A stretch of 25,186 bases of DNA from a virus, in IMG/VR virus record IMGVR_UViG_3300032296_002609, positions 1-25,186 of that record. One strand, 5' to 3'. This document shows positions 2,072 through 5,922 of the stretch, one piece after another. Within the stretch, counting starts at the first letter, position 1. Every line of letters begins with the position of its first letter. A program made the translations under genes and the position numbers. The notes under the pieces are model-generated. The model had not been told where the DNA came from and made no database searches. It worked only from the letters and a program-made list of their open reading frames with translations.

Positions 2072-2437
2072 ATGAAAAAATACGCATTGTATATTGGAAG
2101 ATGGCAGAACTGGCATAAAGGACATGAATGGTTAATCCGCCAACAAATGGATAAAGGAAAAAATGTTTGGGTAGCAATTAGAGATGTTCCAAAAGATGAG
2201 AACAATCCTAAATCAGCAAACGAAGTATTATTAATGTTACAAAATGAACCATTCTTTCAACAAAATTGGGATAAATTGTTTATATCAATTATTCCTGATA
2301 TCGAAAGTGTAAATTATGGTAGAGGTGTGGGGTATGAAGTAATTTATCACGAACCACCAACTGAAATTGCTGAAATAAGCGGAACTAAAATTAGAAAGGG
2401 AGAAATAGATGCCACAGGTAAAGAGACACATAGCTAA
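2072..2437 (+). CDS. Small NadM-like nucleotidyltransferase (adenylyl/cytidylyltransferase fold)
   Basis: A 121-residue protein with the two signatures of the HxGH nucleotidyltransferase superfamily. HKGH lies at residues 15-18 after a GRWQNW segment close to the GRFQPxH of NadM/NadR NMN adenylyltransferases. ISGTKIR at 102-108 matches the ISxTxxR phosphate-binding motif. It would transfer AMP or CMP from a nucleoside triphosphate to a phosphorylated substrate. It is shorter than typical NMN adenylyltransferases (about 170 residues) and nearer the TagD-like cytidylyltransferases in size, so NMN is likely but not certain as substrate. The 3' end overlaps the next gene by 29 bases in another frame, which suggests coupled expression. 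No other NAD-salvage gene is in the window. Confidence 0.7.
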   Translation: MKKYALYIGRWQNWHKGHEWLIRQQMDKGKNVWVAIRDVPKDENNPKSANEVLLMLQNEPFFQQNWDKLFISIIPDIESVNYGRGVGYEVIYHEPPTEIAEISGTKIRKGEIDATGKETHS

Positions 2438-2621
2438 AAGTATAACTTATAGAATAGTTGGAACATTAACAACTATTGGATTAACTATTGCAGCTGGGTT
2501 GCCAATAAAATGGGCAGGTATGGTTGGTGTCGCGGAACTTTTATTCAAACCATTCATATACTTTCTGCATGAGAGAATTTGGTATAATTGGATTAAATAC
2601 GGATTAAAAAATAAAAAATGA
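2409..2621 (+). CDS. DUF2061 family small membrane protein
   Basis: A 70-residue protein matching DUF2061 along its length. The N-terminal KSITYRIVGT segment (about 10-19), a central hydrophobic region forming two short membrane helices (about 17-32 and 36-53), and the C-terminal KPFIYFLHERIW signature (about 47-58) are all present. The function is unknown. In bacteria the domain is often beside, or fused to, adenylylsulfate kinase or other small nucleotide-handling enzymes. Here it overlaps a nucleotidyltransferase by 29 bases and the peptide deformylase by 4 bases (ATGA). The ATG at 2409 is supported because the conserved signature begins only a few residues later. Confidence 0.88.
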   Translation: MPQVKRHIAKSITYRIVGTLTTIGLTIAAGLPIKWAGMVGVAELLFKPFIYFLHERIWYNWIKYGLKNKK

Positions 2622-3253
2622 AATTAGTAATTGACAAAGACAAAAATGGTTTTGAAACCAAAGAATTCAGAGAGTATCTAAAAACACCATGTGTTAAAAC
2701 GGAAATGACACAAGAAGAAGCGGATATGTTGAGAGATACACTATCTATGGGTATGGAAACGTATCCAGGTTTAGGAATTTCTGCTACTCAATTGGGTATC
2801 AAAAAGAGAGCGTGTTTAATTAGATTTGGTGATGAAGAATTATTTCTTTTAAACCCTGTTATTAAAGAAAAATCAAAAGAGGGGTTTCTATTTTATGAAG
2901 GATGTCTTTCTATCCCTAGAACAATTGAAAGACCTATTAGAACAATCAGAGCATGTAAAGTTGTTATTGATACGGATAATTTGGGGGAATTAACATTTGA
3001 GATTAATCCGGATGGTGATAAACAAAATGAACAAATTTCAAAAGAAACAATGATGACTGTTATTGTTCAGCATGAGATTGACCATTTGGATGGATTTACA
3101 ATTAAAGATCGAGTTTATACTACCACAGTTGTTAAAAAACAAACTTACGGAAGGAATGATAAAGTTGTAATGAAATCTCCCGATGGTGAAATGGTTGAGA
3201 TTAAATATAAAAAAGCAAACGATTATTTTTTAAAGGGATATGAAATAGTATAA
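2618..3253 (+). CDS. def: Peptide deformylase
   Basis: A 211-residue zinc or iron hydrolase that removes the formyl group from nascent N-terminal methionine. All three family motifs are intact: GLGISATQ at 51-58 (motif I), EGCLSIP at 94-100 with metal ligand Cys96 (motif II), and QHEIDHLDG at 151-159 with ligands His152 and His156 and catalytic Glu153 (motif III). The N-terminal helix region is complete, so this is not the minimal form seen in some cyanophages. The roughly 45-residue tail after motif III is lysine-rich and unlike the short amphipathic helix of many cellular enzymes. The start overlaps the DUF2061 stop by 4 bases. Phage deformylases are thought to keep maturation of phage-made proteins going during infection. 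Confidence 0.95.
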   Translation: MKLVIDKDKNGFETKEFREYLKTPCVKTEMTQEEADMLRDTLSMGMETYPGLGISATQLGIKKRACLIRFGDEELFLLNPVIKEKSKEGFLFYEGCLSIPRTIERPIRTIRACKVVIDTDNLGELTFEINPDGDKQNEQISKETMMTVIVQHEIDHLDGFTIKDRVYTTTVVKKQTYGRNDKVVMKSPDGEMVEIKYKKANDYFLKGYEIV

Positions 3254-3517: not shown

Positions 3518-4207
3518 ATGCCAAGAAAAAAAAATCAAAAACAATATTTTACAAAAGATACGGAAGATGCTATTATAGAGTATAATTTAACCGAAGACCA
3601 ATTAATTAAAGATAAGATTTATAGAGAACGTATAAAATCTGCCTTCGATAAACTTGCAGAAATAGTTTACAATAAATGGAAGTTCACATATTTTGATGAT
3701 GACCCGCAAGATGTTATGTCGGAGGTGGTAACCTTTATGATTGAAAAAATACACATGTACAGAGCAGGTAAAGGTAAGGCGTTTTCGTACTTTACTATTG
3801 TTGCAAGAAACTATCTTATTCTAAATAATAATGCAAACTATAAAAGATACAAAGATACGGATGTTATTTCAAATATGCCAGAAAATTGGGATAAAGAAAA
3901 TAATTTTAGAGAGGAAGTTCGTAATGATGAATATAGAGTATTCAATAATTTAATGTTGGATTATTGGGATAAGCATTTGGAAAATTACTTTCCAAAGAAA
4001 AGAGATATGCAAATAGCAGATGCAGTATTAGAGTTATTTAGGAGAGCAGAGTATATAGAAAATTTTAACAAAAAATCTTTGTATCTCTTAATAAGAGAAA
4101 TGACAGGCCACCCAACACACTATATAACAAAAGTTGTAAATAAAATGAAAGAAAAACAGCTGGAGTTATATAATGAATTTGATAGAAGTGGAGATATTAA
4201 AATTTAA
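3518..4207 (+). CDS. 55: Late-transcription sigma factor, T4 gp55-like
   Basis: A 229-residue protein resembling the reduced sigma factor of T4-like phages, which directs host RNA polymerase to late promoters that have only a -10-type element. Residues about 35-115 look like sigma region 2: an acidic helix with DDDPQDVMSEV, then KGKAFSYFTIVARNYL, the counterpart of the gp55 segment ending in FAYFTQI, then a basic RYK stretch. There is no region 4 helix-turn-helix, as expected for gp55. It is longer than T4 gp55 (185 residues), with a helical C-terminal extension, and the last residues could carry the sliding-clamp contact. It lies just upstream of the carbamoyltransferase and the structural block it presumably activates. 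General sigma-70-like similarity is the main alternative. Confidence 0.8.
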   Translation: MPRKKNQKQYFTKDTEDAIIEYNLTEDQLIKDKIYRERIKSAFDKLAEIVYNKWKFTYFDDDPQDVMSEVVTFMIEKIHMYRAGKGKAFSYFTIVARNYLILNNNANYKRYKDTDVISNMPENWDKENNFREEVRNDEYRVFNNLMLDYWDKHLENYFPKKRDMQIADAVLELFRRAEYIENFNKKSLYLLIREMTGHPTHYITKVVNKMKEKQLELYNEFDRSGDIKI

Positions 4208-4209
4208 TT

Positions 4210-5922
4210 ATGATTCAATTAGGATTATCAGGATTCTACCATGATTCCGCAGCAGCATTGGTTATTGATGGAAAAGTAATAGCAGCAATAGAAGAAGAGA
4301 AACTATCAGGCATTAAGCATGATAGTTCTTTTCCGTTTAAAGCAATCCAATGGGTATTAGATTACACACACATTACAATAGATGAGGTTGATATGGTTTG
4401 TTGGTATGAAGAACCTAGTTTAAAATTCAAAAGAGTTAAGAAATCTATTACAGGAAATTGGAAAGATTTTTTAATAAATTCCGCTAATGGTAAGTGGAAA
4501 GGATTTCTTAAAAGATGGTCACAGGGTGAAGGTAATATAAGTGGAATATTAGAATCCATCGGATACGATGGTGTAGTAGTTTATACAAAGCACCACCTTT
4601 CTCATTTGGCTTTTTCTTATTACACATCCCCATTTGATTCTGCAATAGGAGTTTCGGTTGATGGCGTCGGTGAAGAAGAAACAATATTAGCTACACTTTG
4701 TAGGGATGGTAAATTTCAAGAACTTACAAGAGTGACATTTCCAAATTCATTGGGATTAGTTTATTCCGCATTTACCGCATATTTAGGATTTAAACCAAAC
4801 GAAGGTGAATACAAAGTTATGGGATTGGCACCATATGGTGATGCAACAAAATACGAATACGTTTTCGAAAAAATAGAAAAGTATGATAGATTAGGAGAAT
4901 TGTTACAAATAAATGAAAAATATTTTACATATAAAAAATCGGAAAATGATATGTTCAATCAAAATTTGATAGATTTGATTGGATTTTTACCTAGGTTTAA
5001 AGATGAACCAATTGAACAACATCATAAAGATTTATCCGCTGCATTACAAAAATGGTATGAAAAAATATTTTACTTTATACTAAATAGAGTCAATAGTAAT
5101 TGGAGTAGTCCTAATTTAGTATTGGGAGGTGGGTGTGCATACAATGGAACTGCAAATGGCAAAATAAAGGAGCACACAAATTTTAAAAATGTTTGGATAC
5201 CATTTGCTCCATCGGATGCCGGTTCTGCTATTGGTGCGTGTTTATATCATTGGCATATAACATTCGGTAATCCAAAAGTAAAAGGTGGTGATAACCAATC
5301 ACCATATTTAGGCCCAGAGTGGAATGATAATGAACTATTTGATATTATTACTAAAACCAACAATGGAGTACGAATTCAGTTTATAGGTGATGATAGTGAG
5401 TTATGTAAAGTAGTGGCAAATCTGATAAAAGATGGTAATATTGTTGGATGGTTTCAAGGTAGAACCGAATTTGGTGCAAGAGCGTTAGGAAATCGTTCTA
5501 TTTTAGGTAATCCACATCTTCCAGATATTAGAGATAGAATTAATAAGGTTGTCAAAAAGAGAGAGATGTTTAGACCATTTGCTCCAACCGTTACGTTTGA
5601 GGATTACCAAAATTATTTCAAATCGGAAGAAGCAGTACCATATATGAATCAAGTTGTAAATGTGGTTTCCAAAATACCAATCCCATCCGTTACACATGTG
5701 GATAATAGTGCTAGAATTCAAACAATAAAAAGGGAGGAAAATCCATTGTATTACAATTTATTAAGAGAATTTGAAAAATTAACAGGAACGCCAATCTTAT
5801 TGAATACATCATTCAATTTAAAAGATCACACAATGACAAATACTCCACAAAAAGCAATTTGGACATTTTTAAATTGTGATATGGATTATTTAGTATTGGG
5901 TAATTATTTGATAAGTAAATAA
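4210..5922 (+). CDS. Carbamoyltransferase (NodU/CmcH/TobZ family)
   Basis: A 570-residue protein, full length for the family. The N-terminal ASKHA/Kae1-like part has GLSGFYHDSAAAL (6-18), the metal-binding HHLSH (128-132), an SVDGVGE turn, EYKVMGLAPYG and GGGCAYNG. The C-terminal YrdC-like part has GWFQGRTEFGARALGNRSIL (from 413), MFRPFAPTV and a closing LLNTSFN. The family makes carbamoyl-AMP from carbamoyl phosphate and ATP and moves the carbamoyl group to a hydroxyl. Substrates include sugars and antibiotics, and a viral member has been reported to act on 5-hydroxymethylcytosine. No cytosine hydroxymethylase is in this window, so the substrate is open: modified DNA, or a sugar on a surface polymer. 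It starts 2 bases after the sigma gene stop. Confidence 0.95.
   Translation: MIQLGLSGFYHDSAAALVIDGKVIAAIEEEKLSGIKHDSSFPFKAIQWVLDYTHITIDEVDMVCWYEEPSLKFKRVKKSITGNWKDFLINSANGKWKGFLKRWSQGEGNISGILESIGYDGVVVYTKHHLSHLAFSYYTSPFDSAIGVSVDGVGEEETILATLCRDGKFQELTRVTFPNSLGLVYSAFTAYLGFKPNEGEYKVMGLAPYGDATKYEYVFEKIEKYDRLGELLQINEKYFTYKKSENDMFNQNLIDLIGFLPRFKDEPIEQHHKDLSAALQKWYEKIFYFILNRVNSNWSSPNLVLGGGCAYNGTANGKIKEHTNFKNVWIPFAPSDAGSAIGACLYHWHITFGNPKVKGGDNQSPYLGPEWNDNELFDIITKTNNGVRIQFIGDDSELCKVVANLIKDGNIVGWFQGRTEFGARALGNRSILGNPHLPDIRDRINKVVKKREMFRPFAPTVTFEDYQNYFKSEEAVPYMNQVVNVVSKIPIPSVTHVDNSARIQTIKREENPLYYNLLREFEKLTGTPILLNTSFNLKDHTMTNTPQKAIWTFLNCDMDYLVLGNYLISK

Follow-up and report, generated by a model that had tools for sequence, protein, structure and literature searches.

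A compact HxGH nucleotidyltransferase paired with DUF2061 in phages: a candidate sulfate adenylyltransferase

Introduction

Two non-homologous kinds of ATP sulfurylase, Sat and CysDN, are described in the excerpt available from PMC6286981. Sat-type enzymes carry an HxGH motif, a GRD loop that contacts APS and an SGTxxR motif whose arginine swings to the sulfate, as set out in parts of PMC3779200 and PMC11697783. Most SAR11 are stated to lack ATP sulfurylase (PMC10356861, in excerpt). Among viruses, cysC is a known but unvalidated auxiliary gene in aquatic environments and phage sulfotransferases of unclear function have been reported (excerpts of PMC12713726 and PMC10580990, respectively). DUF2061 is listed as, or called, a membrane protein of unknown function in the excerpted text of PMC3751524, PMC12442407 and PMC12632274.

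The locus discussed here lies in a 25,186-base virus record, referred to as the window, which is the whole stretch of DNA that was analysed. It encodes a short nucleotidyltransferase (NT) that a previous sequence-only reading had considered as a possible NMN adenylyltransferase. Comparison with viral and cellular relatives points in another direction: NT is probably a minimal sulfate adenylyltransferase with a NadM/CoaD-type fold, which would act with an APS kinase to make PAPS for sulfation and would have DUF2061 as its membrane partner.

The gene and protein in the window

The features of the window to which the text refers are the following.

1115-2056: UvdE endonuclease, upstream of NT
2072..2437, + strand: NT, a 121-aa HxGH-superfamily nucleotidyltransferase, proposed compact sulfate adenylyltransferase (ORF, motifs, alignment, model)
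2114..2125, + strand: HxGH motif (HKGH, residues 15-18), nucleotide binding; H15, G17 and H18 invariant in 34/34 aligned sequences
2315..2335, + strand: YGRGVGY signature (residues 82-88), family-specific loop; Y82, G83, R84, V86, G87 and Y88 invariant in 34/34
2375..2395, + strand: ISxTxxR motif (ISGTKIR, residues 102-108); S103, I107 and R108 invariant, I102 and T105 conserved in at least 90% (34 aligned)
2409..2621, + strand: DUF2061 protein, 70 aa, proposed membrane partner (PF09834, 46.4 bits, cut-off 23.1)
2409..2437, + strand: 29-base overlap of the NT and DUF2061 ORFs, which lie in different frames (ORF coordinates)
2618-3253: peptide deformylase, downstream of DUF2061

Further along, a 229-aa ORF at 3518-4207 shows a weak match to sigma-70 region 2 (E 0.022, below cut-off) and is possibly a phage sigma-like factor. 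Downstream of the deformylase, positions 4210-5922 encode a carbamoyltransferase of the surface-decoration type (Carbam_trans N and C, E 4e-59 and 2e-64; PHROG 'Nol-like').

The sequence-only reading had correctly described a 121-residue ORF with HxGH and ISxTxxR motifs (H15-K-G-H18 and I102-S-G-T-K-I-R108), overlapped over 29 bases by DUF2061 in another frame. When 34 members from viruses, phages, bacteria and archaea are aligned, G9, R10 and R37 join the invariant residues given above. The hallmark of the aligned family is a YGR[G/D]VGY block, in which the fourth position is either G or D and whose loop is inferred to have a substrate or ribose role; many members read SAT instead of SGT. The core of about 110 residues has the same length in cellular relatives, so that NT, short as it is, does not appear truncated, and its reading as a truncated NadM was rejected. 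In both NT and DUF2061 outside the overlap, dN was lower than dS in seven pairwise comparisons, with dS saturated in some; between the window and locus L003 the dN/dS values are 0.043/0.380 for NT and 0.104/0.478 for DUF2061.

Profile, fold and nearest families

Against Pfam CTP_transf_like, the window NT gives a weak match of 15.2 bits (cut-off 21). Its nearest solved relatives by sequence profile are NMN adenylyltransferases (1f9a, E 8e-12, over the N-terminal part at profile positions 4-75), and this comparison with solved proteins lists 48 sequences up to E 1, none of them an ATP sulfurylase chain. Curated NadM profiles, on the other hand, are far from reached: TIGR01527 scores 26.3 against a cut-off of 181.2 bits and NF002243 28.2 against 127, and five cellular relatives attain at most 49.5 bits with the latter. 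The HxGH and ISxTxxR motifs are found in NT as in NadM, but they are common to the whole superfamily and hence not specific to NadM. PF01747, the Sat family, gives no match in the window NT up to E 1, and the NT-kinase fusion protein of L133 scores 15.9 bits, below the cut-off of 24.3.

The AlphaFold2 model of NT has a mean pLDDT of 84.8, with residues 81-88 below 50. It aligns with CoaD and NadM at a VIA-align Z of about 9, mostly over 105-113 residues, and ATP sulfurylase is absent from the 50 VIA-align matches listed. Foldseek likewise gives NadM and CoaD the top ranks (lowest E 0.0036, no match reaching 0.001), with an ATP sulfurylase at rank 41. Assignment of NT to the NadM/CoaD-type HxGH fold class is thus fairly secure. 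The suggestion of a NadM-like enzyme holds for the fold and the nearest solved relatives, but not at the curated cut-offs. The structural comparison proposed in the sequence-only reading recovers the fold class without separating the substrates, because NadM, CoaD and, at rank 41, ATP sulfurylase all match the model.

Pairing with DUF2061

The 70-residue DUF2061 protein is modelled by AlphaFold2 as two long helices, residues 2-28 and 33-61 (mean pLDDT 76.9, pTM 0.50). Its association with NT was followed in the best 80 of 252 viral stretches that encode an NT relative, which together with the window make 81 distinct sources; L001 was not counted because its sequence is part of the window. In 81/81 sources, many of them near-identical, NT is followed on its own strand by a DUF2061 ORF. 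The two ORFs overlap in 58 of the 81 loci and are separated by more than 50 nt in the other 23. Once redundancy is removed, 36 loci are left: in 23 the ORFs overlap by 14-32 bases (29 bases in 10 of them), and in 13 they lie 112-1655 nt apart.

Those gaps that were read mostly hold an inserted gene, encoding a 2OG oxygenase, a sulfotransferase or a methyltransferase-like protein. The junction is an insertion hot spot, with different genes inserted in different phages.

Inserts at the NT-DUF2061 junction: L012:4379-4909, L017:4366-4905, L030:4376-5591, L052:2956-3561, L079:4368-4988, L080:2042-2653

The reverse search, seeded with DUF2061, gave 115 loci that were reduced to 61 non-redundant ones, two further loci being left out. 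NT is present in 57 of these 61 viral loci (56 within 2.5 kb) and the kinase discussed below in 47, although the set represents the near part of the DUF2061 family, as the queries were taken from NT loci; four loci have neither (L274, L304, L332 and L340). When 50,697 phage records were searched by tblastn with the DUF2061 protein of the window, no match was returned. The reciprocal co-occurrence (81/81 and 57/61) supports NT and DUF2061 as a real functional pair rather than a chance arrangement, in agreement with what the overlap had originally suggested.

An APS kinase homologue as the usual partner

No partner enzyme gene had been noticed beside NT, which is accurate for the window: neither a kinase HMM nor a sulfotransferase motif finds a match there in any of the six frames. 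Relatives, however, do have such a partner, and it is a homologue of APS kinase. Pfam APS_kinase was searched for in 50 of the 80 viral records, selected mostly for their length, and 13 contain a match: in 12 of these the kinase closely precedes NT, with one gene between in L040, and in one, the L025 phage, it is encoded elsewhere. A wider search with a family-specific HMM covered the 4 kb around NT in 70 non-redundant viral loci. It detected the kinase in 64, DUF2061 in 59 and a sulfotransferase-type P-loop ORF in 28; kinase or DUF2061 is present in 69 loci and all three in 25. The counts for kinase, DUF2061 and sulfotransferase are 37, 30 and 13 in the NT-seeded subset (n=41) and 27, 29 and 15 in the DUF2061-seeded subset (n=29). 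Gene order varies between kinase-NT-DUF2061, DUF2061-kinase-NT, NT-kinase and DUF2061 fused to the kinase, which indicates that the link between NT and kinase does not reflect one frozen block.

The viral kinase of L041 scores 72.5 bits with APS_kinase (PF01583), above the Pfam cut-off of 21.1, and 73.7 bits with TIGR00455, below the cut-off of 138.7. The DGD motif, a double mutation of which abolishes human APS kinase according to an excerpt of PMC11697783, is kept in 106 of 115 non-redundant kinases. One viral kinase used as a tblastn query matched four of the 50,697 phage records.

Fusions tie the two enzymes together more closely. An APS kinase is fused in front of NT in Saprospiraceae (L107, APS_kinase 138.6 bits) and in Bacteroidetes (L113), and NT precedes the APS kinase in DPANN archaea (L130 and L133-L137; L133 174.5 bits). 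Two Stenotrophomonas phage proteins (Bhz60 and DLP_6) are kinase-NT fusions. DUF2061 is itself fused to APS kinase beside NT in five cellular loci (L125, L127, L128, L129 and L131) and three viral ones (L160, L190 and L206). The best NCBIfam match of the L133 protein is 'bifunctional sulfate adenylyltransferase/adenylylsulfate kinase' (188.8 bits, cut-off 669); the alignment starts at residue 44 and so takes in the second half of NT.

Other arrangements were observed as well. L160:3998-4738 joins NT to a mannose-6-phosphate isomerase-type cupin, and L221:3941-4750 joins it to DUF6717. In two DPANN fusions, L133:3720-4631 and L137:3436-4344, the fused kinase domain is without DGD and a separate kinase gene lies near. 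Fungal Sat also has a kinase-like domain, a parallel layout, and by analogy the DPANN domain is possibly a regulatory pseudokinase.

In the phage clade with the order UvdE-NT-DUF2061, to which the arrangement in the window corresponds, no kinase adjoins NT. The L025 phage (201,940 bases, 81% NT identity to the window) has its kinase and NT about 158 kb apart on the contig; in the 12 kb of listed ORFs at that kinase locus no sulfotransferase was recognised, but glycan-type genes were. The window may be too short to include the kinase, or a host kinase may serve.

Neighbouring genes and the choice of substrate

Viral neighbours were sampled without regard to names, the two closest ORFs with 110 aa or more being taken at each of the 70 loci; NT, kinase, DUF2061 and ORFs of 700 aa or more were left out. 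This selected 133 of 471 neighbour ORFs. Their commonest Pfam families are Sulfotransfer_3 (16) and Sulfotransfer_1 (15), followed by 2OG oxygenase (5), and no NAD-salvage family occurs among the 25 most frequent of the 59 families. A sulfotransferase motif is found within 4 kb in 28 of the 70 loci and none was seen in the other 42. In the cultured Stenotrophomonas phage Bhz60, a sulfotransferase-like gene, NADAR and the kinase-NT fusion are three consecutive genes. The first of these, Bhz60_00032 (L082:4576-5154), is annotated as hypothetical and scores 26.2 bits with Sulfotransfer_4 (cut-off 22.8).

A scan of cellular genomes yielded 48 NT loci, of which L090, apparently a viral contig within a MAG, was set aside. 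The kinase lies within 4 kb of NT in 39 of the remaining 47; the exceptions are L091, L094, L108, L110, L111, L112, L114 and L120. A sulfotransferase-like ORF follows NT directly in L125 (27.3 bits against a cut-off of 27), L128 and L129 and comes about 250 bases after it in L131, and sulfotransferases are also near NT in L123, L126 and L133. Phosphatases of the Inositol_P family (CysQ-type) are near NT in L123, L126, L130, L133 and L137. A cluster of sulfite reductase, CysH and NT occurs in four of four Nitrospirales loci (L108, L110, L111 and L114), and these four keep the cluster though their genomes also hold Sat.

Such neighbourhoods bear on the idea, raised in the sequence-only reading, that NT restores NAD against defence systems. 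NT would then be an NMN adenylyltransferase forming with the kinase a NadR-like pair that leads from nicotinamide riboside to NAD and counters NAD-depleting defence. The best profile and solved-structure matches are indeed NMN adenylyltransferases, NADAR is the gene immediately upstream of the kinase-NT fusion in Bhz60, and NadR is a nucleotidyltransferase-kinase fusion in the excerpted text of PMC9503650. According to the same excerpt, NadM-bearing phages all carry NadV as well; the annotation of Bhz60 lists no NadV over positions 9,894-56,562 of 56,562. The kinase, moreover, scores as an APS kinase in L041 and, at 139-174 bits, in the cellular fusions, albeit less clearly in Bhz60, where AAA_33 (38.7 bits) exceeds APS_kinase (28.2). 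With sulfur genes as neighbours and the NCBIfam cut-offs for NMN adenylyltransferase far above the scores of NT, this reading appears improbable and the proposed NAD restoration finds no support in the gene context. An anti-defence role was also considered more generally and rejected: the kinase matches VakA weakly (22 bits), which looks like general P-loop similarity, and PADLOC returned no match for NT or DUF2061.

An equally doubtful alternative is that NT adenylylates some other small acceptor, for instance a phosphorylated sugar or lipid precursor, and that kinase and sulfotransferase act on the product in the decoration of surface glycans. Glycosyltransferases, 2OG oxygenases, sugar dehydrogenases and a carbamoyltransferase near some loci would fit, as would the NT-cupin fusion of L160, but the sulfite reductase-CysH-NT clusters are left unexplained, and so are the genomes that have an APS kinase and lack a known ATP sulfurylase. 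That NT is a non-catalytic regulatory or helper domain for the APS kinase, as its very small size, the low-confidence loop of the model and the presence of Sat in some NT genomes might suggest, is highly improbable given that HxGH and ISxTxxR are invariant or nearly so and that NT is intact in L133 and L137, where DGD is missing from the fused kinase domain. Sulfate activation by NT is more likely than rebuilding of NAD, because partner kinase, fusions and neighbours all point to sulfur.

ATP sulfurylases in genomes with NT

If NT activates sulfate, it might replace the known ATP sulfurylases. Neither Sat nor CysD is found in 37 of the 48 NT genomes (36 of the 47 cellular ones). Sat is present in eight, including all four Nitrospirales, and CysD in three others, the same three in which CysN is above cut-off; these 11 of 47 cellular genomes count against sulfate activation by NT.

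Two lineages allow a comparison with relatives that lack NT. Among 149 Marinimicrobia genomes, seven have NT and all seven have an APS kinase match, one with an internal stop codon. Sat or CysD is found in none of the seven, whereas among the 82 genomes without NT whose APS kinase match is strong (E under 1e-19), 74 have one of them. Similarly, CysD occurs in none of the five genomes with a DUF2061-kinase fusion, versus 179 of 194 NT-negative Chitinophagales with APS kinase. The Chitinophagales control comprises 298 genomes, searched for CysD alone of the two ATP sulfurylases, and is centred on G090, itself one of the five; another of the five, L127, is placed only as Bacteroidia. The 298 include two NT-positive genomes, G090 and G370, and the latter has CysD. 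Fisher values of 9e-7 for Marinimicrobia and 6e-6 for the fusion genomes overstate independence, because the NT-positive genomes are mutually related assemblies of MAG or single-cell type and of unstated completeness. Both contrasts are indications, short of proof, in favour of sulfate activation by NT.

A proposed sulfate-activation module

The genes, motifs, fold class, fusions, co-occurrence and neighbours of the NT module were observed directly, and they are consistent with the following pathway. NT would convert ATP and sulfate to APS and PPi, and its usual partner, the APS-kinase-like enzyme, would phosphorylate APS to PAPS. With PAPS as their substrate, nearby sulfotransferases would then transfer sulfate to a target of the phage or the host, probably a surface glycan or a small molecule. 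DUF2061 would most likely hold the enzymes at the membrane or handle sulfate there. For the phage in the window, the kinase would be encoded elsewhere on the genome or supplied by the host.

On a broader level, it seems somewhat likely, judging from the sequence comparisons, that NT represents a third class of ATP sulfurylase: a single domain of about 115 residues from the NadM/CoaD branch, occurring in uncultured bacteria and DPANN archaea and on viral contigs that number at least in the hundreds. With a phage cassette of sulfotransferase, APS kinase, mini ATP sulfurylase and DUF2061, a virus could make its own PAPS and sulfate a target during infection. NT may thus be an undescribed compact version of a basic enzyme of sulfur metabolism. 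No earlier description of it in a sulfate-activating role was found in the titles and abstract openings of the open-licence matches listed, and an NT of this kind is not described, among the matches listed and in the portions of text they offer, in the literature on phage NAD salvage, viral cysC, phage sulfotransferases or ATP sulfurylases.

Should the proposal be right, the sulfur metabolism predicted for Marinimicrobia, marine Bacteroidota and DPANN archaea would have to be revised to include a third, tiny ATP sulfurylase. Phage sulfotransferases would gain a PAPS supply of their own, and the functionally uncharacterised membrane family DUF2061 would be assigned to a pathway. Caution would also be due before every short NadM-like phage protein is called a NAD-salvage enzyme.

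Comparison with known systems

Viral auxiliary cysC and phage sulfotransferases are reported without mention of NT or DUF2061 in the excerpts of PMC12713726 and PMC10580990. In PHROG 10255, labelled 'kinase', the first part matches viral kinases and the last part NT, and the kinase-NT proteins of Bhz60 and DLP_6 are named only kinase or hypothetical protein in their records.

NadM (TIGR01527) and CoaD/PPAT share with NT the GRxQPxHxGH start, the overall fold and ISxTxxR. In contrast to archaeal NadM, NT is about 50 residues shorter and adjoins APS kinase, not NAD genes. The YGRGVGY block of NT takes the place of the acceptor-site region of NadM.

Sat (PF01747), which also forms the C-terminal domain of animal PAPS synthase, is, like NT, an HxGH-type adenylyltransferase with SGTxxR and a GR[D/G] loop, and like NT it can share an operon with APS kinase or be fused to it, in either order. 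The HxGH, GR[D/G] and SGTxxR-type motifs of NT follow one another as in Sat within about a quarter of the length, with the QxRN of Sat unmatched, such short motifs being weak evidence. Whereas Sat has about 400 aa, NT has about 115, falls below the PF01747 cut-off and is nearer NadM by profile; the extra domains of Sat are absent from NT. On the reading proposed here, NT would function as an ATP sulfurylase while standing outside PF01747. The assimilatory ATP sulfurylase CysD/CysN, finally, carries out the reaction proposed for NT and has the same partner, CysC, but the two are not homologous.
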